Assembly: GCA_037043015.1 (NCBI GenBank)
Contig: CM073321.1
Location: forward strand, 22,751,001-22,815,000
Source of the DNA: Bryum argenteum
Lineage: Eukaryota > Streptophyta > Bryopsida > Bryales > Bryaceae
Length of the DNA: 64,000 bases
Reading direction: 5' to 3'
Program-made: the position numbers and the translations under genes
The notes under the pieces: generated by a model
The model's database searches: none
The model's input: the letters and a program-made list of their open reading frames with translations, nothing else
Told to the model about the DNA's origin: nothing
Part shown: in pieces, positions 11,112 through 62,522 of the stretch
Position numbering within the stretch: position 1 is the stretch's first letter
How the letters are laid out: every line of letters starts with the position of its first letter

Positions 11112-11113
11112 CT

Positions 11114-11124
11114 TGGTATCGAGC
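11114..11124 (+). other. Primer binding site with a 1-base deletion
   Basis: It reads TGGTATC-GAGC; the A of the tRNA-Met-type site is missing. This may reduce priming and is unique to this copy here. Confidence 0.8.
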
Positions 11125-11163
11125 GGGGCTTTTAGTACCCAAGTGCAAAGTTGTGAGGGAGCA

Positions 11164-12327
11164 ATGGGCAAGAAGAAGACCATTGAGGGTGATGAGCCCG
11201 GAGCTTCCAAGCGGCCACGCACGAGGGGGAACAAAGACCCCGATCCTACAAGTGAGGCTCATTCTCATGACTCCAATGAGCAAGTTGCCACTAGTGAGGG
11301 CAATGAGCAAATGGAATTGTCACTTCAAGAGGAGCCCTTGGGTGAAGAGGAGCGCTCTAGGTCGAGACGCCTAGAGTCTTCCCAAGGGGTGGAAAGACAA
11401 GATCCTCAATTGGCTTTCCAAATGAGAATGCTTGAGTTCATGGACTCCGTGAATCAAGAGCTCAAGCGTGGGAAGGAAGAAAGGGATCGCCAAGAGAGGT
11501 TGATTGAACACCTCATGATGCAAGGGTCCCGACCTTCATCTTCCACCAAAAAGTTGGCTAAGGTAAACATGCCAAGCACCTTCTCGGGACTTGGTAAGGC
11601 AAGGAAGGTGAAGGAATTCCTTCTTGAGATGGATAACTACTATGATGTCCAAAAGCCGGATGAGGAGGACAAGGTTTCCATTGCGGTGACATTTCTCAAG
11701 GATCATGCTCTTCAATGGTGGACAAGCAAAAAGGAGCAAGAGCCGGAGTTGGTGGCAAACTTGACTTGGGGTGGCTTCAAAGACTTGTTGAGTGAACGCT
11801 TCACACCAGAGTATCAGGAGTTGAGGGAAGGCATGAACTTGGTGCAAATGAGGCACACTGGGTCTCTCAAGGCCTATGTACGTGACTTCAATGCCCAAAT
11901 GAATGCCACACCCAAGATGGATGAGTTCTCTAAGAAGTGCATCTTCTTGGGTGGGCTTCAAAAGTGGGTGGTGGATGCCTTGTTCAAGTTCCCAAAACTT
12001 CTCGAGGATGTGGCGGGCATCATCAAGATTGTTGAAAGGATTGAGGCTGATGGACCCGAGAGGAAGTCAAGTGGCCCCTCTCAACAAAGTGGATCAAATA
12101 GGAATGCGGCTCGAGGCAAAGAGCGCAAGAAGTTTGGCTTTGGCAACAAACACAAGGGACAAGTGGATGGTGGAGCCTCTAACAAAAAGGAACACCAAGG
12201 GGGAAAGCCATCGAAAGGGGGAGACAAAGGTGATGACACCAAGGCCAAGAGGTGCCATGGTTGTGGCAAGATTGGCCACTTCGTTGCGGAGTGCCCCGAC
12301 AAGAAGGGGCAACGCACTCCTTCATGA
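11164..12327 (+). CDS. gag: F1-2 Gag, intact 387 aa, ends just after the splice-like junction
   Basis: Start ATG 11164. The N-terminal 100 residues are acidic and low-complexity. They are followed by a Glu/Arg-rich helix (near residues 110-140) and the conserved gag core ([22 protein letters not shown]). The CCHC knuckle [14 protein letters not shown] is at residues 364-377 (12253-12294). After PDKK the protein ends GQRTPS-stop. This tail exists only because the 151-nt interval is missing: in copies that keep it, the frame runs on towards the protease. Gag would form the particle and bind RNA through the knuckle. It is the only complete F1 Gag in the window. Confidence 0.85.
12306..12307 (+). 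other. Exon-exon-like junction replacing 151 nt
   Basis: GACAAGAAG is joined directly to GGGCAACG. F1-4 has 151 nt here (41367-41517), starting GTGAGT. The same 151-nt interval is missing from F2-2 and F2-3 relative to F2-1. The protease DT of DTG is lost with it. Confidence 0.75.
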
Positions 12328-15300
12328 GTCCCAAACTAGCAAGGGAGTTGGGCTTGCCACTGCAAAAGGCAAGCAAGCCCATCAATGTGCGTTTTGCAAA
12401 GGGCGAACCGCACAAGACGGAGGAAGTGGCGTTGCAAGTGACCTTGAAGTGTGGGACATTGGAGTTTGTTGAGAATTTCACATTATGTGAGATGGATGAG
12501 GTAGACCTCATCTTAGGGGATACCTTCTTTGAGGCGCACACAGTGGATGTGAGGCGCAAGCCAGCACGGTTAGTGGTGCGTCGTGATGGCAAGGAGTTAG
12601 TGTTGAAGTTAACTCGTGGCCCTTCAATAGCGGGGGGCAAATTAAACTTGGTCTCTTTAGACCAAATGTTGGAACATCAATTTGTGGTGATGGCTCGTGA
12701 AGAGCAACCTGGGCATGAGGGGAAGGGGGTGCAACAACCACTTCCCAAAGAAATTCAAGAGGTGTTGGCCAAGTACAAGGATGTGCTTACCAATGAGTTA
12801 CCCAAAGAGCTAACCCCAAGAAGAGAAGTGGATCACAAGATCGAGGTGCTACCTGGAACTGAGCCACCTTCTAAGGCACCTTATCGGTTAAACCAAAAAG
12901 AGTTGATGGAGCTAAAGAAGCAACTAAACGACTTGTTGGAAAGAGGTTATGTGAGACCAAGCAAGTCACCATATGGTGCACCGGTCCTCTTTGTGGACAA
13001 GAAGGATGGCAAGCTTAGGATGTGCATTGATTATAGGGCCTTGAATAAGGTGACCATCAAGAACAACTACCCTTTGCCTCGAATTGATGATCTCTTTGAT
13101 AGATTGGCGGGAGCTAAGTACTTTAGTCGCATAGACTTGAAGTCGGGTTACTACCAAATCCGCATTGCGGATGCGGATGTAGAAAAGACCGCGTGCCGCA
13201 CAAGGTATGGGTCTTATGAGTTCCTTGTGATGCCCTTTGGGTTGTGCAATGCACCCTCAACATTCACAACCCTTATGAACACCATCTTTCGAGAGGAAAT
13301 GGATGACTTTGTGATTGTCTACATCGATGACATCTTGGTGTTTTCCAAGACGGCCGAGGAACATGCAAGGCACCTTGAGGCGATACTCATGAAGCTTAGA
13401 GACAACAAGCTTTATGCTAATGGGGAAAAGAGTGAGTTTGCACAACTTGAGATGGAGTTCTTGGGCCATGTGGTTACCGGAGATGGAATCAAGCCGGACA
13501 TGAAGAAGGTGAAGGCAATTCAAGAGTGGAAGCGGCCTTCTACACAAAAGGGACTTAGGTCATTCCTTGGCCTAGCAAACTACTATCGCCGCTTCATACG
13601 CAACTTCTCTAAGATTGCCAAGCCTTTGTCCGACTTGTTGAAAAAAGGGGTGAACCAAGTATGGGATGAATTTTGCTACCAAGCCTTTGAGGAACTCAAG
13701 AACAAGTTGTCATCTCCACCAGTGTTGAAGTTCCCTGAGTTTGATAAGCCCTTTGAGGTCCACACGGATGCAAGTGACTTTGCCATTGGAGGCGTCTTGA
13801 TGCAAGATGGTAGGCCAATTGCCTATGAGAGCAAGAAGTTGGATGGGTGTCAAATGAGATGGCCAACTCACGAGAAGGAGCTCTTTGCGGTGGTGCATTG
13901 TTTGAAGACATGGCAACATTACTTGGGGTTGCACAAGACTAAGGTCTACACCGATAATGTGTCTTTGAAGTATTTTGAGACACAAGCACAAATGAGTGCC
14001 AAACAATTGAGGTGGCATGATACCTTGGCGCTCATGAATGTGGACTTGATCCACAAACCGGGCCGTGACAATGTGGTGCCGGATGCGCTAAGTAGAAAGG
14101 AAGAGTTTCATGCCATGAGCACCACCCAAGTCTTGCGGCTCATGTATAAGGGTGAAGGCAATTGGGAACGGCGGATAAGAGAGGGGTACATGAAGGACCC
14201 CGAGGCACAACAAATGCTTGGTGATCTTAGGAAGGGCAAGAAGCTCAAGGAGATCAAGTTGGTGAATGGATTGCTCAAGTATAAGCAAAGTAGGGTGTAT
14301 GTTCCTCAAGGCAAGCTTAGATTGTTGGTTTTGAAGGAGGAACATGATAGTCCCATAGCCGGCCATAGGGGAGAAAAGGCTACCATTGCAACGGTGTCAA
14401 GGAGGTACTATTGGCCGGGGATGAAAGATGACATAACCCACTTTGTGAAGACTTGTGTGAAGTGCCAACTTAACCGGCTTCATATCAAAAGCAAGCGGGC
14501 TTGTTGCAACCATTGCCAATTCCGCCGGGTCCTTGGCATAGTGTGTCTATGGACTTCATCACAAGCCTTCCCGAGTCGCAAGGGTATGATGCCATCTTAG
14601 TGATGGTGGATCGGTTTAGCAAGTTGGCTCATATGGTGCCAACTAGAGGAACTACAAATCGCGCTTGAGACCGCCAAGATCTTTCTCGATGCATGGTGGA
14701 AGCATCACGGGTTGCCAAGAGTGATTGTGTCGATCGAGACCCAAAGTTCACAAGTGCATTTTGGAGACACTTCTTTAGGAAGGTGGGAACCAAGTTGACA
14801 TTTAGCACTCGCCTTTCATCCCCAAACAGACGGGCAAACCGAAAGGGTGAATGGGGTCTTGAACCAATACTTGAGGAACTTTGTGAGTGCGGACCAACGT
14901 GATTGGGTAGACTATGTGGGGTTGGCGGAGTTCGATTTACAATGCGGCCACACACTCGGCGACTAAGGAGTCACCTTTCAAAGTGGCCTATGGAGTGGAG
15001 CCACTCCAACCTGCCGACTTAGCTCTCGAGGGGGCACATTCAACACCGAGTTCAACCAAGATGGTGAAGACTTGGCCAAGAAGCGGGAACATATGTTGGA
15101 AAAAACCAAGTTGTTGTTGGAGAAGGCAAGAAGGCGCTATGAGAAGCAAGTCAATGCCGGAAGACGTGAAGTGGAGTATGAGGTGGGACAAAAGGTGTTG
15201 TTGAATGTGAAGAACTTCACCATGCCCGAAGGCCTCACTCCAAAGTTCATGTCCAAGTTTGCGGGTCCGTTTCCCATTGTGGAACGGGTGTTCAAAGATG

Positions 15301-15636
15301 TGTATAAGTTGGAGCTACCACCCGAGATCAAAGTGCATCCAACATTCCATGTTTCATTGTTAAAGTCATTCAAGGAGGATACCTTGTGGCGGATCGCAAG
15401 CAAGTGATTCGGCCACCACCGAGTTGGTTGGACAACATTTTGGAATATGAGGTAGAGGCCATCCTCAAGAGTAGGAATCTCAAAAACAAGAGCAAGGAAT
15501 ACCTTGTGAAGTGGCGAGGATACCACGAGAAAGAAGCAACGTGGGTGGCGGCAAAGGACACATGGTGAATGCTAAGGAGGTGGTGGAGAACTTTGAGAAG
15601 CATAGGAGCTCCAACAAGAAGCAACGTAGGCATTGA
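12307..15636 (+). pseudogene. pol: F1-2 pol (protease remnant to chromodomain), frameshifted
   Basis: One frame stays open from the protease remnant (GATHSFMSP, catalytic Asp missing) to 14600. It covers RT with YIDD, RNase H ([21 protein letters not shown]) and the integrase zinc finger. A lost G near 14478 breaks the frame (an error shared with F1-3 and F1-4). Further indels scatter the integrase core (14600-15060). The GPY/F module is open at 15072-15407. A lost C at about 15388 and a 2-bp insertion at about 15560 break the chromodomain (EYLVKWRGYHEKEATWV). The stop is at 15634-15636. Confidence 0.88.
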
Positions 15637-16422
15637 TGAGGACATCAATCTCCGTAGTGGGGGAGGATGACTTGTAGCTTGGGCGTAGATCCACAACACT
15701 TGTACTTGTTCTTTGGATTTGGCAATAAAGTTTGGCTTTGGTGTGTGCAAAGAGAAGAGTATGAGATGGAGTCCTAGTCTTGTACTTGTGCTAAGTTGGT
15801 GGAAGAGGGGGAATAGAGATGTGAAACCGAGTTGGGAAGGCCGAGTAATGGGGACCAAGGCTAGGAGAAAGAGTGGATAAAACCATGAAGTCCCTTGGCC
15901 TTGGGCTTGTCCGGGCGGGGACAAGGTAATGGCGCGTGCTCATAAAAGCGCCACTCCCACAAACTAGTGCAAGCTAGTGCATGGGAGTCATGAACCCATG
16001 CCTTGAAAGAGATAGTGGGATCCGAGTTGGGCGGAACTTGGCATTACCCCCGTGCGATCGAGTCGTGGTGTAAAAGCCATCTTGGGTTTGCAACCAAGAC
16101 AACTTGGTGGAAGCATTGAGGTCCAGCCTAGTAGTCAAGGAAGAAGTGTTAGGCTAGTGGAGCCTAACTTGGAGAGCCAAGGTAAGGGCAATCCAAGAGG
16201 GTCTCAAAGTAGGTGGGTCTAGAGTAATTTAGTTGCCTTGGAAGAGGTCCAGGGTACTAAACGGACCACCTAGTGACGACACCTTTGAGACTATGCCAAA
16301 GTTTGAGAGTGCATTGTGGGGGTCGCGCCCTGGTGAAACACAATGCTGCACCAATGGGGATGGCAACCCAAGAGTTGGTGTGACCGACTACAAGTATAGT
16401 CGATGAGGGCATCGACTCCATT
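15637..16422 (+). other. F1-2 3' non-coding region
   Basis: It is homologous to 5725-6510 and holds no gene. Confidence 0.8.
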
Positions 16423-16435
16423 AGGTGGGGGTGAG
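16423..16435 (+). other. Polypurine tract of F1-2
   Basis: AGGTGGGGGTGAG directly precedes the 3' LTR. Confidence 0.85.
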
Positions 16436-17726
16436 TGTCGCGCACCTCTCCTTGAGGAGTGCCCGCAACACCAAGGGCCCAAGGGGGACACCGGAGTGAC
16501 GCCCGGGCCTTGGGGTGCCAAGGTGAAGGGAACCTAAGTGGGCCTAGTGTGGGAGAGGACCCCGGGCGTTGGAGACGCCTCTCACCCACGGAGACTAGGA
16601 GCCACGAGGGAATGGACATGAGATTATGGAAGCTCATGTTGCCACGATTCCGGGATGCTAAGGAGCACCTCATTTGGAGGTGTGAGCTAAAAGTTATGGG
16701 AGTTGGAAGATTGTGGGACTAAAGGGAGTGCTGTCCAGGGACAGTGCTGGACTGGGAAGCTGGCCCGGGACTCCCGAATCTTCAGAGGGGCATAACTCCC
16801 TCAATACTTGTCGGAATGAGGCAAGTAAGGTGTCTATCGGCATCTGCTTGACGAGTAGATGTCGATAGAGTGGTCGCTCGTCGCGTTTGGATGCGGGACG
16901 AGGTAGATACGAGCCCTGGAAGGTTCGGGAAGTCTCCGGGGCCTTCCAGCGGCTAAGGCATTGGGAGATTGGGTGGTCTTCCAAAACTAAGAGGTGTGAG
17001 GGTCCAGCCCTTCACCTAGGACCAGGGGCTGCCGAATCCCACAGAGTATACTATGGGGAGGGCTGGTCTCCTCCCCACTCCCATGGTGCCTTGGTGGTGA
17101 CCAAGGTGGGAGTCCCAGTGGTGTGGCTAGTGTTGGGGCCTCACCATGGGGACTCCCAAGCCAAGTGAGTCCCAATGGGTGGAGCTAGTGTTGGGGCTCC
17201 ACCATGGGGACTCAAAGTGCAAAATGAGGCACGGTGGGTGGAGCTAGTGTTGGGGCTTCACCACGGTGGCTCATAAGGACAAGGTGAGTCCCGGTGGGGG
17301 AGCTAGTGTTGGGGCTTCACCACGGGGACTCATATAGGCAAAATGAGGACCATGAGTGCTACCGATGTGGGGTGGTGTCTCACCGCCGGCGTTGTGATTA
17401 CTTGGTGGCCTTGGGGTCACCATGGTGGTCATGGGCGGTGGTGAGGAGACACCACCAAGTGCGGTTAGGCCGCGTGGTATGGGAGTGCCACCAAGTTGGG
17501 CCTTGGACATAAGTGGAAGTCCGCACCTAACCATTGGCTACCTACGAAGGTGTTGAGTCCCGGTTGCATGAGTAGGAGGGATTGATAACCAAGCGGTGAG
17601 CTTGGTGGTTGGTATGGAGAGCTAACTTTGTGCATGTGGGGGATGTGCAGAGTTAGCGCTCGTGACACTTGCTAGATTTGGGAAAAAGTTGGTGTAAGCT
17701 AAGGTGAGCTAGCAAGGGTTGCGACA
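16436..17726 (+). repeat. F1-2 3' LTR (1291 bp)
   Basis: It runs from TGTCGC to GCGACA and is followed by the TSD copy GGATG. Confidence 0.95.
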
Positions 17727-20886: not shown

Positions 20887-22197
20887 TGTCGCGGCCCTAA
20901 TTACTCCCACTCTTTTTCTTCAAGTAAGCCTTACTTGGTAGCGGAATCACGGCTTACTTTATTGGTAGCAACCGGCCACAACTTAGCTAACACTGCACAT
21001 GCCAAGCACACACAATGTTAGCACCATTTCTAGTCAAGGTGTCCAACCCACCTTGACTCCCCCAACTCATTACCCGGAACCCGTAAACCGGAACTCCCAC
21101 AAAACACATGGGCATGCCACTTGGTGGCACGGGGCGGCCTTCCACACATGTCCAAGCTCCCAAGGGTGGCACTACTCACCCCCGGAGCTAACCGCCCTTG
21201 CATATTGTCCAACTCACCACTAGTCCCCTTCCATTCATGTCTTCGGGACATTACCGGAAACCGGCACTACTTTTCACGGGGACTAGTTTGGAGCGGGACA
21301 CTTTTCCAACCCAATGTTTCGGGATGCACACCACAAGCATCCCATAGTGCCCAAGGTGCGGGAGTGAGGCTCCATCCCAAGCCTCACCCCTTAAAGCCAC
21401 CCCGGCTCTCCTCGGCACCATGTGGAAGTGAGGAGGGAGACCACCCCTCCTCATAGTACTCTCTAGAGTCTTCGGTAGGCCCCCCCCTCTTGTGTTGAGG
21501 GGCCTTCCGTGACACACTTTTGTTTTGGAAGACCACCCGTTTTTGCCTTAGCCTCAAAAACGGGCCGTATCTTCTTCTCGGGCTAACTTGTAGCATAGTT
21601 ATCCAAATGGGACGTGCGAGCCCATTTTCGACATCTACTCTTTGAGTAGATGTCGATAGACTCCTCACTTGTCCCAATCGGAGCTTCTATGTGGGAGCTA
21701 TGCTCCTCTGAACATTTGGGAGTCCCGGGAGGCAGCAGTCCCGGAGTCCCGAAGTCCCGATGCTTTGGAGAGCCATATCTCCCAAAGCATTGCTTTGCTC
21801 CTCACGAGCCTTAGCATTTTGGAAAGCTCTTGTCTAGAGCTTTCCAAAGACATGCAACATGCCGCCATCCAAGAAGGACGACATTTTGAGTCCCGAAAGG
21901 TAACACTCCCAAGTCCCGGAGTGTCCCGGAACGCGCTCCAACTTTGGAGAGCCATATCTCATGACTCACAACTCCAAATCGCGCGTTCTTTGGACCTATG
22001 GGTGCGTGCTTAAACAAGGTTTCCAACCATGTAAAGCACACCACCAAGTTCGTCCCGAGCACGACGCCATTGCGTGCTGTTTGCTCGGGACTCCCCTTAG
22101 TCACTTCACCTTGTCTCTTGCCAAGCCCGGGACGTCACTCCCGGGGTCCTCTTGGCTCACCACGGTGTTCGGGCATCCTTTTGAAAGGGATGTGACA
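20887..22197 (-). repeat. F2-1 3' LTR (1311 bp)
   Basis: On the minus strand it runs TGTCACATCCC to GGCCGCGACA. It contains the perfect 13-bp-arm hairpin at 21628-21656. Confidence 0.95.
21628..21656. other. Perfect hairpin in the F2 LTR
   Basis: TCGACATCTACTC, loop TTT, then the exact complement. It is related to the F1 LTR hairpin; the other F2 LTRs keep it with 0-3 changes. Confidence 0.75.
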
Positions 22198-22210
22198 CTC
22201 ACCCCCACCA
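22198..22210 (-). other. Polypurine tract of F2-1
   Basis: The minus strand reads GGTGGGGGTGAG before TGTCACATCC, almost the same as in F1. Confidence 0.85.
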
Positions 22211-22333
22211 AACAGCGTCGATGCCCTCATCGACAATCTCTCTTGTCGGCAGTACCAAGTTCTTGAGGTAGCCTCCTCCTTGGCACTTGCATTGCGTTCC
22301 AGGGTAGCTAGCCCCGCAATGCTCTAAGCATCG

Positions 22334-24814
22334 TGTCGTAACGTGCTTTCCCGATTCGTGCCCGGATAACCCTTTTTCGTGGTAAAAGAGGTTTCCCAAA
22401 CAAGAACCCGAGTATTCGTCCACGGAGATCCTGTGAAGTGCAAGGTCAACAATTTTCACCAGTTAGCAAACCCGGGTTTGTGCTATCCGGGTACTGTCCT
22501 ATCACCCCTATACCCTCTATCCTGTCCTGGAAAAAGCTGCCCGGACAGGAGAAGAGAGGGGGGTTTAGTCTTTGTGGTTTTGTTTAGCCTCTGTATTCAC
22601 CTCAGAGGGGTTTTCCCGCGTTTAGATAAGTGGGGGGATTAGACCACTTTTCCCGTTGATTAACGTGACCGGAAAGGTCACCGAGACTCTCTCTCTCTCC
22701 TTACCCTGTTAGGAACTTCCCTTATACCTCCCTCTACGCCCGGACTCTACACCCACGCGCATGTCACAAAGGTTGGTATCCGGTTCTCCTATGGTCCGGT
22801 TATCACAACTCACTACCCGGGTTAGTAGATCCCGGGTTACTGGACTGGGGGTGGTGCGACTGGCCCGGAGTTCACCGCTATCACCTACGGCCAATTCTGC
22901 CTATCTGGACTTCAGCAGATCCAGGGGGACTCAACCGATGGTGTTCTCGGGAGTCGGTTAAGCGACCGGAATCCCTTCCGAGCCGCTGTAATCCCAGACG
23001 CTACACGGACAGACCGGACTGCACCATAAGTGGCAAGTGCCGTTCGCTAGCCGCACTCCTCCCCTGTCAGCTTCTCTACCTCCCGTACTACTCTCCGTTC
23101 AAGGACGGAACCGCTCTCTCTCTTGCCCGGATAGCAAGGGTCCTCTGAACTCTGCAAACACCCCGACCCAGCAGACAAGACAGGAAAAGGAGAAGGACAC
23201 ACAATCAGACACACACGCACACACACGAGGGAGATGAGAAAGAGGCGTGCTTGCACTGGATTAGGGTATTGCAGAATCACAAAAAGACCCCGAGGAGGTA
23301 TCCTCCCCTCGGCTAAGTAGCAGATCCTCCCTGGCATCCCAGAAGAGGACAAAAATTCCTTGCCAGGGAATCTTTCTAAATCTATCCCTCTGTCAGCCTA
23401 GCGCCGTCATTCTCCTATCTGCAAATAAAAGTACTACTTCTAACCTAATCTCGATCCGGGATATCCGCCCACCGTTATCTCAGCCCTGATCGTCCTCCTC
23501 CATCCTGACGGTCACAGCGCCTCGGCAGTCTCGGAAGCGCCGTCTTCCTGCGCCCTCGGCCCGGGTTGGGAGGTGACCTCCTCCTCTTCGTTCCCTGTCT
23601 CTTGGAGCACTGGAGCGGTCCCTCCGCTCCCTAGAATCTCAGTATCCCCGGAAGGCATCGGGGCTGAGGTGTCCGGAAGTGCCTCTCCGATCTCCGGGAC
23701 ATCGATCAAGTCCTCGGGGATGAGGGGGGCGACCTCCGCGGTCAGCACCTTCTCTGGGAGGGCCTCGCCGTCAGAGGGCTCCGACGGATTGGTTAAACCC
23801 GGACAGCGAGGCATCTGTGGCTCCTCGGTTACCAGTCCGGGTGGCCGGGTATCGGCCTCCCCCTCCTATCCTGGTTGGATCGTGGCCTCTAGGGCAGGAA
23901 TAGGACTCCTATCCGCGGGGTCCACAGTCCGGTCCGGTGGAATGGGGGAGGGATTCCTTACCCGGGTATCCTCCTCCGCTACCCGGGAAACCTCCTCTTC
24001 GACTATCCGGGGAACCTCCTCCTCGATGGGGGTATGCCCTTGAGCTTGCCTCAAGACTCTCCGGTATGTCCTTGCTGAGGGGTGCAAAGTCCCTGTCTCC
24101 CTCGAGGTCTTCTCCGGGCTCAGGTTCGTGGGCAGGACCGGCTCCTCCATTGCCGCGGGGTCGGTGGGCTCTTCCTCCTCGGCCCTGGCATCCTCGGTCG
24201 CTTCGGGGTTGCCCTGGGTGCGGGTATCCTCTACAACTGCAAGGGGAGGTGCCTCCCCGGGAAAAGTCCGGGCCATCTCCCCGATGAGGCCTCTCATCTC
24301 CTGGAGAGCTCCTTCCATCCTTTCTGCAGCCTTCTTCATTCATGTACGCGCGCCCGGGTTGTCCCCGTCCGACCCGTTCGTGGCTACCGACCCGGCCGCT
24401 GCCTTCCCCGGTCTTCGACAACCGGCCGGGCCTCAACCGGTCGAGCCATACCCGGCTAGCCGTACCCGGTTGAGGTATACCCGGTTGAGGCAGCCCTTTC
24501 CCGGGTAGGAGTCAACCCGCGAAGAGCCGCTACGCGTTATCCGGGTCCGCAGCGGGCCGACTGGATACGACTAGGCAGGATCCTGGCTCGAGAACAGGAG
24601 ATACAAAGCAAAAGAAAATTCAAAAAGGTAGTGCTACCCTACCCTGTCCACTAAGCCTAAGGATGCTCCTGGGTGGGCAGGTTCCTGGCCGAGCTAACCT
24701 TACCCGGTCATTACCCGGGTAGGCCAGGATATGGGCGTTTATTTCTCCTAATTAGCTATTACTAACCGCTATCCGGACTCACTTGGGCAAAAAACGAGAA
24801 AATGAGGTTTGACA
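22334..24814 (-). mobile_element. F3-C solo LTR, 2481 bp, inside F2-1
   Basis: On the minus strand it starts TGTCAAACCTCA and ends GTTACGACA. The flanks are CATCG (22329-22333) and CATCC (24815-24819), a duplication with one mismatch. F2 3' non-coding sequence resumes on both sides. There is no internal domain, so it is a solo LTR. It contains an ORF and the U5-like motif. Confidence 0.87.
23512..24339 (-). pseudogene. F3-C LTR ORF, Glu/Pro-rich, one in-frame stop
   Basis: Open from ATG 24339 to 23512 in a single frame, with one TAG at 23866-23868 (about 275 codons). It starts with a short amphipathic, coiled-coil-like stretch (MKKAAERMEGALQEMRGLIG). The rest is low-complexity Glu/Pro/Thr-rich, like the C-terminal half of the F3-B ORF. 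No recognised domain. Confidence 0.55.
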
Positions 24815-25543
24815 CATCCTTCCACTTAGATAATGGCTAAGTCCTCAAAGGTGGCATTAGATAGGTCTAAGGTCCTTGGCACCCTAGAGTTTGCCTTCAA
24901 AGGACCTACAAAATCTAGACCTATCTACTTTGAGACTTACTTGGAATGCCCCCAATGGCCCCAAGTTGGCTCAACTAGCCTCTCATACTCACATGACTTA
25001 GGAATGAATTCAAGGCTAACCAATACTTTCTTGGTCGCAACACCAAGCCCTCTTTTAAGCACTTAGGCTCTCAAGTGGTGAACTTTGCTCGCCTAGGGAT
25101 AATGCTAAGTCCCGCCCGACCTAGCCTTTGCTTCACCCTACCGAGACATGGATGGCCAACCCATGCGTTGACAATGGTCAACCCGCAAAGGGCACTTTTA
25201 TGAGCCCGTGCCACTATCTTGCTCCCGCCCGAGCAAGTCCTAAGCTTGAGAGTCATGGGGATTCACCCACTCACAACTCCCAAGCCAAGGTCTCTGTTTT
25301 GCAGCATTCCAAGTATTGGCTTCGCGTATCCTTCAACCTCTTCTAACCAACCTAGCAATCCAACATGAGACTAGGACACATCTCACATTCAACATGCAAT
25401 CACGGAAACTTGCCATTCAATTTGCAACTTTATTATCAACCAAGTATTACAACATGTGCAATTTGCACCAAATACTAGACAAAACTTAGGCCAAGTGTAC
25501 ACAAGTGTGGTGATTCACCCCACTTCAAAGGTTGATGTCCTCA
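24815..25543 (-). other. F2-1 3' non-coding region
   Basis: Between the Pol stop and the F3-C insertion; 22211-22333 is its other end. It is homologous to 58960-59799 in F2-3. No gene seen. Confidence 0.8.
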
Positions 25544-28500
25544 TCAATATTTTCTCGGTGTCTTGGATCTCCGTTGGCTTTCATAGCTTTCCACCATCTC
25601 CTTTGCATTTGCCATGTACTTGGCCTCAACCCATGTTGCTTCCTTCTCATGGTACCCCCGCCACTTCACCAAGTATTCTTTGCCCTTCTTCTTGGTGTTC
25701 CGGCATTTCAAAATGCCTTCTACCTCAAACTCTAGGTGATCACCAACTAGTTCGGGTGGAGGCCGCAACACTTGCTTGCGTTCCGGCCTCACCTTATCTT
25801 CGTGATATGGCTTGAGCAATGACACATGGAAGGTGGGGTGAACCTTGATCTCCGGTGGTAAGTCCAACTTATAAACATCCTCAAACAACCGTTTTGCAAT
25901 GACAAATGGACCCGCATACTTTGCCATGAATTTGGGAGTCAAGTCATCCGGTAAGGTGAAGTTCTTCACATTCAACCACACCTTTTGGCCCTCCTCATAC
26001 TCCTCATGGCACCGCTCTTTGTTAACTTGTTTCACATACCTCTTTTGTGCCTTGTCTAAGTACCACTTGGTCTTCTCAAGTAGTTGCTCTCTCTTGGCCA
26101 CAAAGTCTTCAGCAACTTGGCTTCTTTCCAACTCCGATTGCAGTCCTTCCAAAGCTAGGTCGGCAGGCATAAGTGGCTCAACTCCATAAGCCACCTTGAA
26201 CAGCGATTGCCCCGTAGCTGAATGCCTTGATGCATTGTAGCTAACCTCCGCCAAACCCAAGTACTCACTCCAATCACTTTGGTCTGCACTCACATAGTTG
26301 CGAAGGTATTGATTCAAGACCCCATTCACCCGTTCCGTTTGCCCATCGGTTTGGGGGTGAAAAGCCGTACTAAATGTCAACTTTGTCTTCATCCTCCTAA
26401 ACAAGTGCCTCCAAAATGCACTTGTAAACTTGGGGTCTCTATCGGATACAATCACCTTTGGCAATCCATGGTGCCGCCACCAAACGTTGAAAAAGAGCAC
26501 CGCGATTTCAAAGGCGGTCGCCGTCCCTTTTGTTGGCTCCATCCTTGCCAACTTACTAAACCTATCAACCACCACAAAGATGGCGTCACTCCCTCGTGAC
26601 TCCGGAAGGTTTGTAATGAAATCCATAGAGACACACTCCCATGGACCATCCGGGATAGGCAAAGGCCTTAACAAACCCACTTGCTTTCGGTATGACGCCC
26701 GGTTGGCTTGACAAGTGATACAAGTTTTCACATAATGGGCAATATCTTCCTTCATCCCGGGCCAATAGAACCTCTTTGAAACCGAGCATATGGTGGATTT
26801 CTCCCCCCTATGCCCGGCCAAGGGGTTGTCATGCTCCTCCTTGAGCACACTTAACCTCAACTTGCCCTTTGGAACATACACCCTATTTTGCTTGAACTTG
26901 ATCATACCTTGGTGAAGCCGGATACCTTTGGGCTTCTTGCCACACCTAAGTTCATCTAAGAACTTTTGAGCCTCGGGGTCTTTCATATATGCCTCCCTTA
27001 TCCGCTTTGCCAAATCACCTTCTCCCGCATACATCACTCTCAAGACTTGCGTGGTGCTTGGCCTATGTTCATCCTTCCGGCTTAGTGCGTCCGGCACCAC
27101 GTTCTCCCGGCCCGGCTTGTGGATCAACTCCACATTCATAAGCACTAAGGTATCATACCACCTGAATTGCTTTGGTGTGACTTTGGCTTGTGTCTCAAAG
27201 TACTTCAATGAAACATTATCGGTGAATACCTTGGTCTTGTGGAGACCAAGGTAATGTTGCTATGTCTCCAAACAATGCACCACGGCAAACATCTCCTTTT
27301 CATGCGTTGGCCAATTGATTTGAGTGCCATCCAATTTCTTGCTCTCAAATGCAATTGGCCTTCCTTCTTGCATGAGCACTCCCCCGATGGCAAAGTCACT
27401 TGCATCGGTATGCACCTCAAAAGGCTTCTCAAACTCGGGGAACTTCAATACCGGCGGGGAGGAGAGTTTCTCCTTGAGTTCTTGAAAGGCTTGCTCACAT
27501 GACTCGGTCCACTCCAAGGTCAAGTTCTTCTTAAGCAAATCGGACATGGGCTTAGCAATCTTGGAGAAGTTCTTTATGAACCTCCTATAATAATTAGCCA
27601 ACCCAAGAAATGACCTCGGTCCTTTTTGTGAAGTAGGTCGGCTCCACTTCTTGATTGCTTCTACCTTCTTGTGGTCCGGTTTGACACCTTGCCCCGTCAT
27701 AATGTGTCCCAAGAACTCAATCTCTTGCAAGCCAAACTCACTTTTCTCCCCATTTGCATACAATTTATTGTCCCTAAGTTTTTGAAGAACAATTGCAAGG
27801 TGTTGTGCATGCTCTTCCTCGGTTTCGGAGAACACCAATATGTCATCAATGTAGACAATGACAAACACATCCATCTCTTAATGGAACACCGTATTCATAA
27901 GGGTTGTGAACGTTGATGGGCGTTGCACAACCCAAAAGGCATCACCAAAAACTCATAAGACCCATATCTAGTCCTACAAGCGGTTTTCTCTACATCCTCG
28001 GCCGCAATCAAGATTTGGTAATATCCCGACTTCAAGTCGATCTGGCTAAAATACTTGGCCCCCGCCAACCGGTCAAAGAGATCATCAATTCGAGGCAAAG
28101 GGTAGTTGTTTTTGATAGTGATCTTATTGAGCGCCCGGTAATCCACGCACATGCGTAGTTTCCCTCCTTTCTTGTCCACAAACAAGACCGGTGCTCCATA
28201 AGGTGACTTGCTTTGGCGGATATATCCCTTTGCCAAAAGCTCATTGAGTTGTTTCTTCAACTCTACCAACTCCCTTTGGTTCATCCGGTAAGGTGCCTTG
28301 GATGGCGGTGCCGCTCCCGGCACCAACTCGATCTTGTGATCAACCTCTCTTCGTGGCGGTAACTCATCCGGCAACTCCTCCGTGAGAACATCACCAAAGC
28401 CTTGGATGACCTCCCGAATACACTTGGGAGGTGTTGAGTTAGAAGTACGCTTATTCCCTTCAACTCCCAAATCGGTCCTTAGCATTATCAAGAACCGGGT

Positions 28501-30107
28501 TTCCTCTAACTCCTCTAAGTTCACCAAGTTGATCCTACTTCCCAACATGTTGGGTGCCTTGGTGAACTCCAACTCAATCTCCTTGCTTTCGGGGTTGGCA
28601 ACCACACTCAATGGCCGCCTCCTTATATCCACCCCATAGGTGTCAAAGAAAGTATTACCCAAGATGATATCAATCCCATCCATCTCACAAACCGTGAAGT
28701 TTTCCACAAAGGTGAAGTTTTGACACTTCACTTCTACTCCCGTAGCTACAAGGCATGTTTGGTGAGGCTTGCCTTTTGCAAACCTCACTTGGATGGGCTT
28801 GCTTGCCTTGCTCAAATGCAAGCCCATCCTCTTCGCAGCTTCCGGACTTATGAACGAGTGGGTTGCCCCTGTATCCAACAGAAAGCAATTGTCACTTTTA
28901 CCAACAACTCCTTTTAGGAACAACAAGCCACCACCTAACTTGGAGCAACTTGCTCTTGCAATGAAACCCCCTTCCATTAGGTGACTTGTAACAAGGATTT
29001 TCCTATTTTCCAAACTCACCTTTGGTTTGGAGCAATCCTTTGCCATGTGACCCTTTTCTCCACAATTGTAACAAGTTATGTGACTTGTCTCCTTCTTGGA
29101 CTTGTCCCCACTTTTGGTTTTGTCCTTGGCAAACTTGTCCTTCCCATCCTTGGAAGGCCCACCCTCACCGCCTTTATGCTTTTGCCAACCATGTTTCTTG
29201 TGTTGGCGCTTTGACTGCGACTTGCCTTGCTCCCCGGTGGAAGTCCCTTCTTTAGAAGTCTTCCGGTGACCTTCATCATCACCAATTCTTTCTGCCAACT
29301 TGAGTAACTCGGCACAAGTTTAAGCGACTTTGGCATCCTAAATAATGCCCGCTCCGCCCAACCTTGGAGTCCATTGAAGAAAATGACCTTTTTGGCCAAT
29401 TCATCTAACTTCGGGAGCACATTTGAATGTGCATTGAAATCCCTCACATAGGCATGAAGGGTGCCCGTTTGCTTCAATCGCACAAGGGCCATGCCATCCC
29501 GAATGTCTTGGTACTCCGGGGTGAAGCGCTCACTTAGGATCTCCTTGAAACCGGTCCAAGTTAAGTTGCTCACTACTCCCGCATTTTCATCCCGGAAACG
29601 AGTCCACCACAAAAGAGCATGCTCTTTCAAGAAGGTCACGGCAATGGTGATCTTGTCCTCTTCACGAGCTCTTTGGGCCTCAAAGTAGAGCTCAAGTTCC
29701 ACAATGAAGTCCTTGACCTTGTTTGCCTTGCCCAATCCCGTGAAGGAAGAGGGCAAGTTAGTCTTGCACAACTTGCGGGAAGAAGGGCTTGATGCCCTCC
29801 CCTTGAGCTCCTTGATCTCTTTTTGCATGACTTGAAGAGTTTTGACAAGCTCATTGAACATTTCATCTCGTGCCTTCCGCTTGTAGCCTCGTTTCCCGGG
29901 AACGGGACTTGAGGGAACTTCTTCCTCATCATGGTGAGTGTCCTCCTCACCACTAGCAACTTCCCTTGGGTCCCCTTGCTCCTCTTGAATTTCCTCCCGC
30001 TCTTCCGAGACATCTTGAGAAAACTCCTCATTAGGGGCATCCCCGGCCTCAAGGGCTTGACTACGTGTGTTCGGGCCACGTCGCGAGCTTCCGGCCCCTC
30101 GTGCCAT
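25544..30107 (-). pseudogene. gag-pol: F2-1 gag-pol, nearly complete, four lesions
   Basis: Start ATG at 30105-30107, 32 bp after the primer site. Gag is open to about 29320, then a frame change. One frame then runs 29298-27895: CCHC knuckle [14 protein letters not shown], protease [10 protein letters not shown], and RT up to MPFGLCN. A shift at about 27910 breaks RT; 27874-27260 has [11 protein letters not shown] and the RNase H start ([11 protein letters not shown]). A Trp-to-stop change (CLET-stop) at 27260 precedes an open frame 27208-25544. That frame has RNase H end, integrase (HRGEKST, CITCQANR, DFITNLPES, VSDRDPKF, TERVNG), GPY/F and chromodomain (EYLVKWRGYHEKEATWV). Repair of few sites would be needed for coding capacity, so this lineage was recently active. 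Confidence 0.9.
28869..29019 (-). other. Putative 151-nt intron between zinc knuckle and protease (retained)
   Basis: Minus strand: CCAAAG|GTGAGT ... GGATACAG|GGGCAACC. It has a consensus donor and an AG acceptor preceded by a T-rich stretch. F2-2 and F2-3 lack exactly this interval. Splicing shifts the frame (151 = 3n+1) and gives Gag a tail KGQPTRS then stop. Unspliced RNA reads through the DTG protease site into pol. Confidence 0.65.
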
Positions 30108-30139
30108 CCTACTCTTGATTGGATCCCGTAACGTAGCCT

Positions 30140-30151
30140 GCTCTGATACCA
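30140..30151 (-). other. Primer binding site of F2-1
   Basis: The minus strand reads TGGTATCAGAGC two bases after the 5' LTR end. Confidence 0.9.
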
Positions 30152-30153
30152 AG

Positions 30154-31464
30154 TGTCGCGGCCCTAATTATTCCCACTCTTTTTCTTCAAGTAAGCCTTA
30201 CTTGGTAGCGGAATCACGACTTACTTTATTGGTAGCAACCGGCCACAACTTAGCTAACACTGCACATGCCAAGCACACACAATGTTAGCACCATTTCTAG
30301 TCAAGGTGTCCAACCCACCTTGACTCCCCCAACTCATTACCCGGAACCCGTAAACCGGAACTCCCACAAAACACATGGGCATGCCACTTGGTGGCACGGG
30401 GCGGCCTTCCACACATGTCCAAGCTCCCAAGGGTGGCACTACTCACCCCCGGAGCTAACCGCCCTTGCATATTGTCCAACTCACCACTAGTCCCCTTCCA
30501 TTCATGTCTTCGGGACATTACCGGAAACCGGTACTACTTTTCACCGGGACTAGTTTGGAGCGGGACACTTTTCCAACCCAATGTTTCGGGATGCACACCA
30601 CAAGCATCCCATAGTGCCCAAGGTGCGGGAGTGAGGCTCCATCCCAAGCCTCACCCCTTAGAGCCACCCCGGCTCTCCTCGGCACCATGTGGAAGTGAGG
30701 AGGGAGACCACCCCTCCTCATAGTACTCTCTAGAGTCTTCGGTAGGCCCCCCCCTCTTGTGTTGAGGGGCCTTCCGTGACACACTTTTGTTTTGGAAGAC
30801 CACCCGTTTTTGCCTTAGCCTCAAAAACGGGCCGTATCTTCTTCTCGGGCTAACTTGTAGCATAGTTATCCAAATGGGACGTGCGAGCCCATTTTCGACA
30901 TCTACTCTTTGAGTAGATGTCGATAGACTCCTCACTTGTCCCAATCGGAGCTTCTATGTGGGAGCTATGCTCCTCTGAACATTTGGGAGTCCCGGGAGGC
31001 AGCAGTCCCGGAGTCCCGAAGTCCCGATGCTTTGGAGAGCCATATCTCCCAAAGCATTGCTTTGCTCCTCACGAGCCTTAGCATTTTGGAAAGCTCTTGT
31101 CTAGAGCTTTCCAAAGACATGCAACATGCCGCCATCCAAGAAGGACGACATTTTGAGTCCCGAAAGGTAACACTCCCAAGTCCCGGAGTGTCCCGGAACG
31201 CGCTCCAACTTTGGAGAGTCATATCTCATGACTCACAACTCCAAATCGCGCGTTCTTTGGACCTATGGGTGCGTGCTTAAACAAGGTTTCCAACCATGTA
31301 AAGCACACCACCAAGTTCGTCCCGAGCACGACGCCATTGCGTGCTGTTTGCTCGGGACTCCCCTTGGTCACTTCACCTTGTCTCTTGCCAAGCCCGGGAC
31401 GTCACTCCCGGGGTCCTCTTGGCTCACCACGGTGTTCGGGCATCCTTTTGAAAGGGATGTGACA
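30154..31464 (-). repeat. F2-1 5' LTR (1311 bp)
   Basis: Partner of 20887-22197, with the same length and the same hairpin. It is followed by the TSD copy ATCGT. Confidence 0.95.
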
Positions 31465-38800: not shown

Positions 38801-39570
38801 TTCCAACATTTGGTCTAAAGAGACCAAGTTTAATTTGCCCCCGCTATTGAAGGGCCACGAGTTAACTTCAACACTAACTCCTTGCCATCACGGCGCACCA
38901 CTAACCGTCTTTGGCTTGCGCCTCACATCCACCGTGCGCCTCAAAGAAGGTATCCCCTAAGATGAGGTCTACCTCATCCATCTCACATAATGTGAAATTC
39001 TCAACAAACTCCAATGTCCCACACTTCAAGGTCACTTGCAACGCCACTTCCTCCGTCTTGTGCGGTTCGCCCTTTGCAAAACGCACATTGATGGGCTTGC
39101 TTGCCTTTTGCGGTGGCAAGCCCAACTCCCTTGCTAGTTTGGGACTCATGAAGGAGTGCGTTGCCCCGTATCAACCAAGCATGAGACATCTTTGTCCTTC
39201 ACTTGGGCCTCAAGAAACAAGAGGCCCGGCCTTGGCTTGAGGCTACTTGCCTTGGCCACAAAACCTCCTTCTAGTATGCGGTCTTCAACACAAGCAAGAC
39301 TTGCAATGGTACTCACCTTCTTGTCGGGGCACTCCGCAATGAAGTGGCCAATCTTGCCACAACCATGGCACCTCTTGGCCTTGGTGTCATCACCTTTGTC
39401 TCCCCCTTTAGATGGCTTTCCCCCTTGGTGTTCCCTTTTGTTAGAGGCTCCACCATCCACTTGTCCCTTGTGTTTGTTGCCAAAGCCAAACTTCTTGCGC
39501 TCTTTGCCTCGAGCCGCATTCCTATTTGATCCGCTTTGTTGAGAGGGGCCACTTGACTTCCTCTCGGGTC
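35849..39570 (-). pseudogene. gag-pol: F1-3 gag-pol remnant (late gag to chromodomain)
   Basis: Minus-strand pieces: zinc knuckle and protease at 39460-39146 (a lost G after DTG), linker 39149-38901, RT 38525-38091 with YIDD, RT end 38087-37824, RNase H and integrase finger 37827-37048, integrase core 36978-36631, GPY/F 36312-36028, broken chromodomain to the stop at 35849-35851. There are at least eight frameshifts, several shared with F1-1 and F1-4. It keeps the GTGAGT interval between knuckle and protease. Confidence 0.88.
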
Positions 39571-40224: not shown

Positions 40225-43200
40225 ATGGGCAAGAAGAAGACCATTGAGGGTGATGAGCCTGGAGCTTCCAAGCGGCCACGCACGAGGGGGAACAAAGACC
40301 CCGATCCTACAAGTGAGGCTCATTCTCATGACTCCAATGAGCAAGCTGCCACTAGTGAGGGCAATGAGCAAATGGAATTGTCACTTCAAGAGGAGCCCTT
40401 GGGTGAAGAGGAGCGCTCTAGGTCGAAACGCCTAGAGTCTTCCCAAGGGGTGGAAAAACAAGATCCTCAATTGGCTTTCCAAATGAGAATGCTTGAGTTC
40501 ATGGACTCCGTGAATCAAGAGCTCAAGCGTGGGAAGGAAGAAAGGGATCGCCAAGAGAGGTTGATTGAACACCTCATGATGCAAGGGTCCCGACCTTCAT
40601 CTTCCACCAAAAAGTTGGCTAAGGTAAACATGCCAAGCACCTTCTCGGGACTTGGTAAGGCAAGGAAGGTGAAGGAATTCCTTCTTGAGATGGATAACTA
40701 CTATGATGTCCAAAAGCCGGATGAGGAGGACAAGGTTTCCATTGCGGTGACATTTCTCAAGGATCATGCTCTTCAATGGTGGACAAGCAAAAAGGAGCAA
40801 GAGCCGGAGTTGGTGGCAAACTTGACTTGGGGTGGCTTCAAAGACTTGTTGAGTGAACACTTCACACCGTAGTATCGGGAGTTGAGGGAAGGCATGAACT
40901 TGGTGCAAATGAGGCACACCGGGTCTCTCAAGGCCTATGTGCGTGACTTCAATGCCCAAATGAATGCCACACCCAAGATGGATGAGTTCTCTAAGAAGTG
41001 CATCTTTTTGGGTGGGCTTCAAAAGTGGGTGGTGGATGCCTTGTTCAAGTTCCCAAAACTTCCTGAGGATGTGGCGGGCATCATCAAGATTGTTGAAAGG
41101 ATTGAGGTGATGGACCCGAGAGGAAGTCAAGTGGCCCCTCTCAACAAAGTGGATCAAATAGGAATGCGGCTCGAGGCAAAGAGCGCAAGAAGTTTGGCTT
41201 TGGCAACAAACACAAGGGACAAGTGGATGGTGGAGCCTCTAACAAAAGGGAACACCAAGGGGGAAAGCCATCTAAAGGGGGAGACAAAGGTGATGACACC
41301 AAGGCCAAGAGGTGCCATGGTTGTGGCAAGATTGGCCACTTCATTGCGGAGTGCCCCGACAAGAAGGTGAGTACCATTGCAAGTCTTGCTTGTGTTGAAG
41401 ACCGCATACTAGAAGGAGGTTTTGTGGCCAAGGCAAGTAGCCTCAAGCCAAGGCCGGGCCTCTTGTTTCTTGAGGCCCAAGTGAAGGACAAAGATGTCTC
41501 ATGCTTGGTTGATACGGGGGCAACGCACTCCTTCATGAGTCCCAAACTAGCAAGGGAGTTGGGCTTGCCACCGCAAAAGGCAAGCAAGCCCATCAATGTG
41601 CGTTTTGCAAAGGGCGAACCGCACAAGACGGAGGAAGTGGCGTTGCAAGTGACCTTGAAGTGTGGGACATTGGAGTTTGTTGAGAATTTCACATTATGTG
41701 AGATGGATGAGGTAGACCTCATCTTAGGGGATACCTTCTTTGAGGCGCACACGGTGGATGTGAGGCGCAAGCCAAAGACGGTTAGTGGTGCGCCGTGATG
41801 GCAAGGAGTTAGTGTTGAAGTTAACTCGTGGCCCTTCAATAGCGGGGGCAAATTAAACTTGGTCTCTTTAGACCAAATGTTGGAACATCAATTTGTGGTG
41901 ATGGCTCGTGAAGAGCAACTTGGGCATGAGGGGAAGGGGGTGCAACAACCACTTCCCAAAGAAATTCAAGAGGTGTTGGCCAAGTACAAGGATGTGCTTA
42001 CCAATGAGTTACCCAAAGAGCTACCCCAAGAAGAGAAGTGGATCACAAGATCGAGGTGCTACCGGAGCCGAGCCACCTTCTAAGGCACCTTATCGGTTAA
42101 ACCAAAAAGAGTTGATGGAGCTAAAGAAGCAACTAAACGACTTGTTGGAAAGGGGTTATGTGAGACCAAGCAAGTCACCATATGGTGCACCGGTCCTCTT
42201 TGTGGACAAGAAGGATGGCAAGCTTAGGATGTGCATTGATTATAGGGCCTTGAATAAGGTGACCATCAAGAACAACTACCCTTTGCCTCGAATTGATGAT
42301 CTCTTTGATAGATTGGCGGGAGCTAAGTACTTTAGTCGCATAGACTTGAAGTCGGGTTACTACCAAATCCGCATTGCGGATGCCGATGTGGAAAAGACCG
42401 CGTGCCGCACAAGGTATGGGTCTTATGAGTTCCTTGTGATGCCCTTTGGGTTGTGCAATGCACCCTCAACATTCACAACCCTTATGAACACCATCTTTCG
42501 AGAGGAAATGGATGACTTTGTGATTGTCTACATCGATGACATCTTGGTGTTTTCCAAGACGGCCGAGGAACATGCAAGGCACCTTGAGGCAGTACTCATG
42601 AAGCTTAGAGACAACAAGCTTTATGCTAACGGGGAAAAGAGTGAGTTTGCACAACTTGAGATGGAGTTCTTGGGCCATGTGGTTACCGGAGATGGAATCA
42701 AGCCGGACATGAAGAAGGTGAAGGCAATTCAAGAGTGGAAGCGGCCTTCTACACAAAAGGGACTTAGGTCATTCCTTGGCCTAGCAAACTACTATCGCCG
42801 CTTCATACGCAACTTCTCTAAGATTGCCAAGCCTTTGTCCGACTTGTTGAAAAAAGGGGTGAACCAAGTATGGGATGAATTTTGCTACCAAGCCTTTGAG
42901 GAACTCAAGAACAAGTTGTCATCTCCACCAGTGTTGAAGTTCCCTGAGTTTGATAAGCTCTTTGAGGTCCACACAGATGCAAGTGACTTTGCCATTGGAG
43001 GCGTCTTGATGCAAGATGGTAGGCCAATTGCCTATGAGAGCAAGAAGTTGGATGGGTGTCAAATGAGATGGCCAACTCACGAGAAGGAGCTCTTTGCGGT
43101 GGTGCATTGTTTGAAGACATGGCAACATTACTTGGGGTTGCACAAGACTAAGGTCTACACCGATAATGTGTCTTTGAAGTATTTTGAGACACAAGCACAA

Positions 43201-46180: not shown

Positions 46181-46182
46181 CT

Positions 46183-46194
46183 TGGTATCAGAGC
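46183..46194 (+). other. Primer binding site of F2-2
   Basis: TGGTATCAGAGC. Confidence 0.9.
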
Positions 46195-47313
46195 AGGCTA
46201 CGCAACGGGATCCAATCAAGAGTAGGAGGGCACCAGAGTCCGGAAGCTCGGGATGTGGCCCGAAGACACGTAGTCAAGCCTTTGAGGCCGGGGTTGCCCT
46301 CATGAGGAGTCTTCTTTAGGTCCATCGAATGTGCGGATGGAAATAAAAGAGGAGCAAGGGGAACCAAGAGAAGTTGCTAGTGGTGAGGAGGTCACTCTCC
46401 ATGAGGAGGAAGAAAATCCTCTAAGTCCCGTTCCCGGGAAACACGGCCACAAGCGGAAGGCACGAGAGCAATGGTTCAATGAGCTTGTCAAAACTCTTCA
46501 AGTCTTGGAAGAAGAGATTAAGGAGCTCAAAGGAAGGGCATCATGCCCTTCTTCCCGCAAGTTGTGCAAGACCAACTTGCCCTCTTCCTTCACGGGATTG
46601 GGCAAGGTAAACAAGGTCAAGGACTTCATTGTGGAACTTGAGCTCAACTTTGAGGCCCAAAGAACTCGTGAAGAGGACAAGATCAACATTACCGTGACCT
46701 TCTTGAAAGAGCAGGCTCTTTTTTGCTTTGTACCAGGATGAGAACGCGGCAGTGGTGAGCAACTTGACTTGGACCGGTTTCAAGGAGATCCTAAGTGATC
46801 TCTTCACCCCGGAGTACCAAGAGATTCGGGATGGCATGGCCCTTGTGCAATTGAAGCAAACGGGCACTCTTCATGCCTATGTGAAGGATTTCAATGCACA
46901 TTTGAATGTGCTCCCGAAGTTAGATGAATTGGCCAAATAGGTCATTTTCTTCAATGGACTCTAAGGTTGGGTGGAGCGGGCATTATTCAAGATGCCGAGA
47001 TTGCCGGAGACTTGTGCCAAATTGCTCAAGTTGGCAAAAGGGATTGGTGATGATGAAGGTCACCAAAAGGCCTCTAAAGAGGAGGCCTCAACCGGAAAGC
47101 AAGGCAAATTACTATCCAAGAGCCAACATAAGAAAAATGGTTGGCAAAAGCTTTAGGGTGGTGAGAGTAGGCCTTCCAAGGATGGGAAGGACAAGTTTGC
47201 CAATGACAAGCCCAAAAGTGGGGACAAGTCCATAATAAAAAGAGACAAGTTACATTACTTGTTTGAATTGTGGTGAAGAGGGCCACATGGCAATGCATTG
47301 CTCCTAACCAAAG
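46195..47313 (+). pseudogene. gag: F2-2 gag remnant, start codon lost
   Basis: Homologous to F2-1 Gag. The ATG of MARGAG has become AGG. Open pieces are 46331-46741 (KRKAREQWFNELVKTL; NLPSSFTGLG), 46728-46940 and 46971-47156. Frameshifts and stops separate them. The CCHC knuckle follows, with its last Cys codon intact but a stop next to it. Confidence 0.85.
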
Positions 47314-47314
47314 G
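47313..47314 (+). other. Splice-like junction in F2-2
   Basis: AACCAAAG joins GGGCAACC. F2-1 has 151 nt here, beginning GTGAGT and ending ACAG. The same junction is in F2-3. Confidence 0.75.
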
Positions 47315-47857
47315 GGCAACCGACTCCTTCATAAGTCCCGAAGCATCGAAGAGGATGGGCTTGCATTTGAGTAAGCAAGCTCATCCAAGTGAGGTTTGCA
47401 AAGAGGCAAGCCTCACCAAACGTTCCTTGTAGCAACGGAAGTAGAAGTGAAGTGCCAAAACTTCACCTTTGTGAAAAACTTCAAGGTTTACTAATTGGAT
47501 GGGATTGGTCTCATCTTATATAAGACTTCCTTTGATACCTTTGGGGTAAAGATAATGAGGTGGCCATTGAGAGTGGTTGCCAACCCCGAAGGCAAGGAGA
47601 TTGAGTTGGAGTTCACCAAGGCTCCCAACATGTTAGGGAGTAGAATCAACTTGGTGAACTTGGAGGAGTTAGAGGAAAACCGGTTCTTGATAATGCTAAG
47701 AACCGATTTGGGAGTTGAAGGGAACAAGCCCACTTCTAAACTCCACACCTCCTAAGTGGATTTGGGAGGTCATCTAAGGCTTTGGTGATGCCTTTTGGGT
47801 TGTGCAACGTCTCATCAATGTTCACAACCCTCATGAATACGGTGTTCCATCAAGTGG
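47314..47857 (+). pseudogene. pol: F2-2 pol remnant (protease tail, linker, RT scrap)
   Basis: Protease tail (AAC CGA CTC), then a linker homologous to F2-1 (47495-47755, [20 protein letters not shown]). At 47781-47790 a 449-bp deletion, shared with F2-3, joins the linker to RT at MPFGLCN. A private deletion at 47857 removes the rest of pol. Confidence 0.82.
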
Positions 47858-48084: not shown

Positions 48085-48097
48085 TGGTGAGGGTGAG
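48085..48097 (+). other. Polypurine tract of F2-2
   Basis: TGGTGAGGGTGAG before the 3' LTR, with one substitution relative to F2-1. Confidence 0.8.
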
Positions 48098-62520: not shown

Positions 62521-62522
62521 CC
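62521..62522 (-). other. Splice-like junction in F2-3
   Basis: Minus strand AACCAAAG joined to GGGCAACC, the same as F2-2. Confidence 0.75.

Follow-up and report, generated by a model that had tools for sequence, protein, structure and literature searches.

To our knowledge, the means by which plant Ty3/gypsy elements with a single frame produce Gag in excess of Pol are not settled. The centromeric Ty3/gypsy elements of rice, CRR, are chromoviruses. In the sections of the cited papers on which we draw, splicing is the answer to Gag excess in Copia elements and in Ogre (PMC3735527, PMC8892269, PMC12786077, PMC6317226). BARE1 of barley (Ty1/Copia) forms a Gag-only RNA by means of a 104-nt alternative intron, and according to the same paper retrotransposons have to keep their spliced RNA from being packaged and copied (PMC3735527). 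EVD/ATCOPIA93 of Arabidopsis, also Ty1/Copia, produces an unspliced RNA for Gag-Pol and a spliced shGAG RNA with a premature stop (PMC8892269, PMC12786077). In Ogre, a Ty3/gypsy element of the Tat lineage and not a chromovirus, a partly spliced intron sets which polyprotein is made (PMC6317226, which also describes the chromovirus clades), and CRR yields spliced transcripts in which removal of rt gives two frames (PMC3735527). A chromovirus of non-seed plants has been described with two frames, and the portion of that account considered here makes no mention of a gag-protease intron (PMC2864245). Among the titles and abstract openings listed by searches of open-licence PMC papers, none described a gag-protease intron in a chromovirus.

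The window (the whole 64,000-nt stretch of Bryum argenteum DNA analysed here) contains two families of elements, F1 and F2, in which a short interval between gag and protease is present in some copies and exactly absent from others. As far as the cited sections describe BARE1, the likeness lies in one long frame, in a small intron that is spliced alternatively where gag ends, and in a stop a few residues after Gag; BARE1 differs in belonging to another superfamily, and the intron-less genomic copies of F1 and F2, unlike what is described for BARE1, suggest that spliced RNA was reverse transcribed. The EVD intron, by the same partial account, is a long one whose removal takes out all of the protease and goes together with early polyadenylation, whereas the interval here measures 151 nt. 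The examples of Gag-only splicing in the cited sections are all Ty1/Copia; here the frame shift to a stop that marks the BARE1/EVD kind was found in a chromodomain Ty3/gypsy element. Ogre, in the section available, likewise has a partly spliced intron (here a putative one) in a plant Ty3/gypsy element, but its intron lies between the gag-pro and RT frames and its splicing allows the whole polyprotein; in F1 and F2 the interval lies between the zinc knuckle and the protease DTG, and the frame is broken when it is lost, which rules out an intron of the Ogre type. CRR is similar in being a spliced Ty3/gypsy element and dissimilar in that rt is removed, according to the part of the source used. 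Set against the known cases, the present one stands apart by its superfamily and by the apparent reverse transcription of spliced RNA. The genome itself seems to record splicing, with exact intron-less insertions serving as a natural splicing assay, and these insertions suggest how an element could give rise to Pol-deficient companions of itself.

Carrier elements and the interval between gag and protease

F2-1 is a Ty3/gypsy chromovirus by its domain order, C-terminal chromodomain, LTRs, target site duplication and primer site. Searches with separate pieces of its open reading frames found Ty3_capsid, zf-CCHC, RVP_2, RVT_1, RT_RNaseH, Integrase_H2C2, SH3_Tf2-1 and, at the integrase end, Chromo (E 6.7e-13), with rve below the cut-off. 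Its LTRs of ~1.31 kb show 8 differences over a 1314-nt aligned pair that runs 3 bases beyond the LTR end; the target site duplication is ATCGT and the primer site is TGGTATCAGAGC, which we take to be that of initiator tRNA-Met. The F1 pieces searched, which excluded the F1 chromodomain region, contained gag, PR, RT, RH and H2C2. Both families are Ty3/gypsy and related to each other, the chromodomain being known for F2-1, and the four F1 copies in the window have ~69% identity with F2-1 in the matched downstream flank (BLAST). The LTR pair of F1-2 differs by 6 substitutions and 4 gap columns, and its target site duplication is GGATG; these two features speak for reverse transcription as the source of this intron-less copy.

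Table 1. Positions of elements, intervals and predicted splice features (slashes mark borders or junctions; positions refer to the window unless a contig is named)
Feature	Position	Strand	Details
F2-1 element	20887..31464	-	LTRs ~20887-22197 and 30154-31464
F2-1 interval, candidate facultative intron	28869..29019	-	151 nt, GT-AG ends
Gag CCHC zinc knuckle, F2-1	29026..29079	-	just upstream of donor
Putative 5' splice site, F2-1	29014..29022	-	AAG/GTGAGT, codons K-V-S
Protease DTG codons, F2-1	28867..28875	-	GAT ACA GGG; putative 3' splice site CAG/GG inside
Out-of-frame tail and stop, F2-1	28848..28868	-	GQPTRS and stop, used if spliced
F2-2 gag-protease region without interval	47060..47559	+	junction 47313/47314
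F2-3 gag-protease region without interval	62276..62775	-	junction 62522/62521
F1-2 element without interval	9819..17726	+	LTRs 9819-11111 and 16436-17726
F1-1 homologous interval	2253..2402	+	150 nt, acceptor ACG
F1-3 homologous interval	41367..41517	+	151 nt, donor AAG/GTGAGT intact, acceptor ACGG
F1-4 homologous interval	39167..39316	-	150 nt, acceptor ACG
Evenly spaced empty-junction copies	C2:10264183-10289113		five, ~6.2 kb apart
Evenly spaced empty-junction copies	C2:7984252-8012091		three, ~13.9 kb apart
Evenly spaced empty-junction copies	C1:41981500-41993883		three, ~6.2 kb apart

The F2-1 interval begins with GTGAGT and ends with ACAG, its borders reading AAACCAAAG/GTGAGTTT...GGATACAG/GGGCAACCCACT, and it is also coding, for the stretch that runs from just past the zinc knuckle of Gag through D-T in the protease DTG. 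An earlier note on this DNA had reported this GT-AG interval as missing from F2-2 and F2-3, and the absence proved exact: BLAST of the F2-1 flanks against the window recovered both copies at 82-85% identity with precisely the interval lacking, and both read AACCAAAG/GGGCAACC at the empty junction. Its statement of identical length and homologous borders in two diverged families was confirmed in that F1-2 (plus strand) lacks the homologous interval exactly, with the junction GACAAGAAG/GGGCAACG at 12306/12307, and F1-3 retains all 151 nt. F1-1 and F1-4 have 150 nt, and the account needs correction in that none of the three interval-bearing F1 copies in the window has an intact AG acceptor, although ACAG stands in 18 of 25 other F1 copies examined. 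The junction position is ambiguous by the AGG (3 bases) common to both borders.

Genome-wide counts were made over the assembly (258.8 Mb in 25 contigs, the window lying on contig C1 of 44.1 Mb) as exact matches, so that copies with one altered letter were missed. A LepA-like protein of this genome has 94% identity to a JGI protein; of its named matches Sphagnum fallax comes first (79% across 92% of the query), liverworts reach 82-85% across 78-81%, and many seed plants are similarly identical across ~78%, in keeping with a land plant and probably a moss as host. The exact empty junction was found 93 times, in F1 letters at 7 places and in those of the intron-less F2 lineage, F2b, at 86, which is more than chance would give, as a reversed control pattern of the junction had no match genome-wide. 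The acceptor together with its interval had 128 exact matches. The F1 exon end was found 175 times, followed by GTGAGT in 165 cases and spliced in 7, with 3 others by subtraction; the intron-less share of F1 was ~4% (7/172). Intact acceptors of the F2a type numbered 26 genome-wide, and none of the 93 empty junctions was of F2a type.

Copies with the interval have gag and protease in one frame, and some are open across it. In its absence, 53 of 54 empty-junction loci (the exception being L029) close the gag frame with GQ[PR]T[PL]S followed by a stop, the 54 comprising the seven of F1 and 47 of the 86 F2b junctions, which were examined as loci. The immediate stop after the frame shift that had been noted for F2-1 (GQPTRS) is therefore a property of nearly all of these loci. 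One protein relative, P0121, has GQRTPS at its end, yet KVS and other residues of the interval are still present in it; it was rejected as a spliced copy and is a frameshifted one.

A candidate splicing switch

Judging from their sequences, the intron-less copies very probably arose by splicing followed by reverse transcription. We propose a gag-pro-pol frame with an optional 151-nt spliceosomal intron, its donor after the zinc knuckle and its acceptor within the DTG codons. The unspliced RNA would give Gag-Pro-Pol; the spliced RNA, which we expect to be present in cells, would lose the active-site D-T of the protease, shift frame and meet a stop after six codons, leaving Gag alone. A portion of the spliced RNA would then be packaged, reverse transcribed and integrated as intron-less copies, the outcome being the seven copies with F1 letters and, in F2, a single lineage (F2b) that went on to multiply. 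The earlier suggestion that the intron is ancestral and that its acceptor overlaps the DTG codons is strongly supported by exact losses in two families ~69% alike in the matched downstream flank, by the scatter of the F1 losses over more than one clade and by the lack of any inexact large deletion among the places scored. Splicing is probably also the source of excess Gag, and in that capacity it may set the Gag:Pol ratio. More tentatively, and with slightly less than even confidence in the two parts taken together, we suggest that a conserved gag-protease splicing switch determines the Gag:Pol ratio in a lineage of bryophyte chromoviruses predating the F1/F2 split, and that the Gag-only RNA enters particles and is copied into DNA, yielding intron-less copies without in-frame Pol, one of which would have founded F2b (86 exact junctions).

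It is quite possible, if short of probable, that the intron is a cryptic one, in which splice-like coding sequences are used accidentally at a low rate, the spliced RNA has no role and the intron-less copies are by-products. The low spliced share of F1 (7/172), the lack of an F2a-type spliced copy and the frequency of acceptors without AG in F1 fit such accidents. GTGAGT...ACAG, with the GT-AG ends of a U2-type spliceosomal intron at exactly the borders of the loss, was present in 13/13 F2 and 18/25 F1 copies and ACGG in 7/25 F1 copies, the donor agreement in these sets being biased because donors were located by the pattern G[TC]GAG. Among the first 100 listed of the 128 acceptor matches, ACG, a synonymous change that removes the AG, occurred in 22/80 of F1 type, and ACT in 1/20 of F2a type. 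Free evolution of synonymous sites at donor and acceptor, which the earlier note had named as refuting its reading, was thus partly seen at the F1 acceptor (ACG for ACA), while the donor was mostly GTGAGT. The T content of the interval exceeded that of the exons in F2 (31% vs 18%) and mildly in F1 (26% vs 20%). As the ACG variant is common in F1, a copy without the AG can spread, so that either splicing is not strictly required for spread or Gag is provided in trans; its frequency and the mild U-richness of F1 limit the claim of regulation, which the earlier note had also made, more than that of splicing.

Accidental use is harder to reconcile with donor and acceptor at the same positions in two ~69%-alike families, with a frame shift and prompt stop in both, and with the retention of K-V-S in most near relatives. 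Conservation across species was compared at the protein level. F1 Gag had 24 protein relatives; the zinc knuckle was present in 14, and 12 of these kept K-V-S, the exceptions being P0134 and P0008. Both motifs were present in 11 of the 120 listed relatives of the F2 piece; K-V-S was kept in 4/11, which are the four nearest in type to F2 (P0001, P0002, P0018 and P0047), and the 7/11 without it are mostly distant. In a combined set of 24 relatives, which gives no frequency because it was selected partly by KVS or KVN, the residues after K-V-S differed between groups.

A third gag-pol group was found by protein similarity at six loci of the same genome (L096-L101), and GTRAG was absent just after the zinc knuckle at 6/6 of them; L099 has GTAAG within the knuckle. 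In this group the distance from zinc knuckle to DTG is longer, and AAG/GTAAGC stands ~30 nt before the DTG codons at 6/6 loci.

Splicing followed by reverse transcription, as graded above, is common ground for the cryptic-intron reading and for the shared-descent reading considered next, and the weights given to these accounts therefore overlap.

Descent of the intron-less copies

In a tree of 96 rows, from which two short and three duplicate rows were dropped, the F2b copies form one clade beside F2a, and the F2b loss therefore looks like one event that was then amplified. With F1, a minimum of two losses, one per family, is firm. For the seven F1 losses, a single clade was rejected (AU test, p 0.0039); on the F1 tree they need 6 changes, of which the well-supported branches force at least 2, most branches being weak. 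This F1 tree, the AU test and the comparison of variants used 34 rows, F1-4 having been dropped for its divergent flank. Several separate losses within F1 are likely.

A real possibility, though we would not call it probable, is that splicing in F1 took place once or a few times and that the losses then spread by descent and by recombination of co-packaged RNAs, with F2b likewise arising once; this account accepts splicing. Polymorphisms are mixed among the F1 copies, and the F1 tree shows the ACG/ACA difference to be no less scattered than the losses (6 changes for 8 rows), a distribution of acceptors that suggests recombination between element RNAs. Two variants shared by L037 and L091, and one shared by L089 and L090, were absent from the interval-bearing copies compared, so some spliced F1 copies may share descent. 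Against a common origin, in addition to the rejection of a single clade, the spliced copy L019 has only 3 differences from the interval-bearing L067 over ~1.18 kb of both flanks, for which two exchanges near the junction would be needed. On whether the spliced F1 copies descend solely from ACA copies, their nearest neighbours gave a mixed answer, and descent is blurred by recombination.

F2b has decayed beyond the loss of the interval. A stop lies two codons upstream of it in 19/47 copies examined, and the protease frame closes within 129 nt in 46/47, in which F2b is unusual solely in number, as several interval-bearing copies also close within that distance. An LTR part of ~0.8-1.1 kb on the F2b side is 92-96% like the F2-1 LTR, and another part of 300 nt only ~72%. 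These sequences would fit a passenger role for F2b, its LTR being in part common to F2a, on which it would depend. BARE2 lost the start of gag by deletion, as the cited section describes it (PMC3735527); BARE2 and, by our reading, F2b both look like families carried by a relative, F2b differing in that it lacks the intron instead. At 44694-49584 of the window, a pair of F2-type LTRs on the same strand, with 95.6% identity over 1487 nt, flanks only ~1.9 kb that contains the F2-2 gag-protease region; no matching target site duplication is formed by the bases outside this pair.

Unlikely alternatives to splicing

An empty junction could also arise if the interval was lost between short repeats (AGG/AGG), either by a deletion of DNA or by a jump of the reverse transcriptase; the three bases common to both borders speak for this. 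A search pattern for the exact junction presupposes that junction and cannot by itself demonstrate precision; a spliced 1001-nt probe from F1-2 is less biased, and with it 40 places were scored of 269 candidates. It matched at full length in seven, which are the same seven exact losses, and at the other 33 scored places the match is interrupted where the interval begins and ends, by 148 nt in 25 places, 149 in 3, 150 in 2, 152 in 1 and 128 in 2. No inexact large deletion occurred among the 40 places scored out of the 269. When 31 F1 copies were compared with one copy over up to 3 kb, the sole deletion of at least 20 nt was the interval, in the seven. The 31 had been chosen by an intact acceptor-side motif, and the control thus speaks for the remainder of the 3 kb; four of the seven spliced copies were covered over only ~1.2 kb, L053 was poorly aligned (0.87) and L019 had an apparent 106-nt insertion near its end. 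One 3-kb F1 copy offers 18,923 repeat pairs of at least 3 nt spaced 30-500 nt apart, and with so many comparable pairs unused, repeated chance jumping at one AGG pair is not credible. The GT-AG ends (13/13 F2, 18/25 F1 copies) also count against deletion between short repeats, which we rejected on precision and recurrence and regard as very unlikely. The reverse order, an intron-less ancestor that later gained the 151 nt by insertion, has nothing in its favour among our findings and was dismissed as practically negligible, since the interval encodes conserved protease, including the D-T of DTG, common to relatives from other sources, and is present in F1, the more distant family.

The copies are unevenly distributed in the assembly. 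Contig C1 makes up 17% of it, yet holds 55/93 of the empty junctions and 95/165 of the F1 donor sites, and it is possible that C1 is a heterochromatin-rich or a sex chromosome. The even spacing of some empty-junction copies (Table 1) perhaps reflects tandem amplification of F2b elements.
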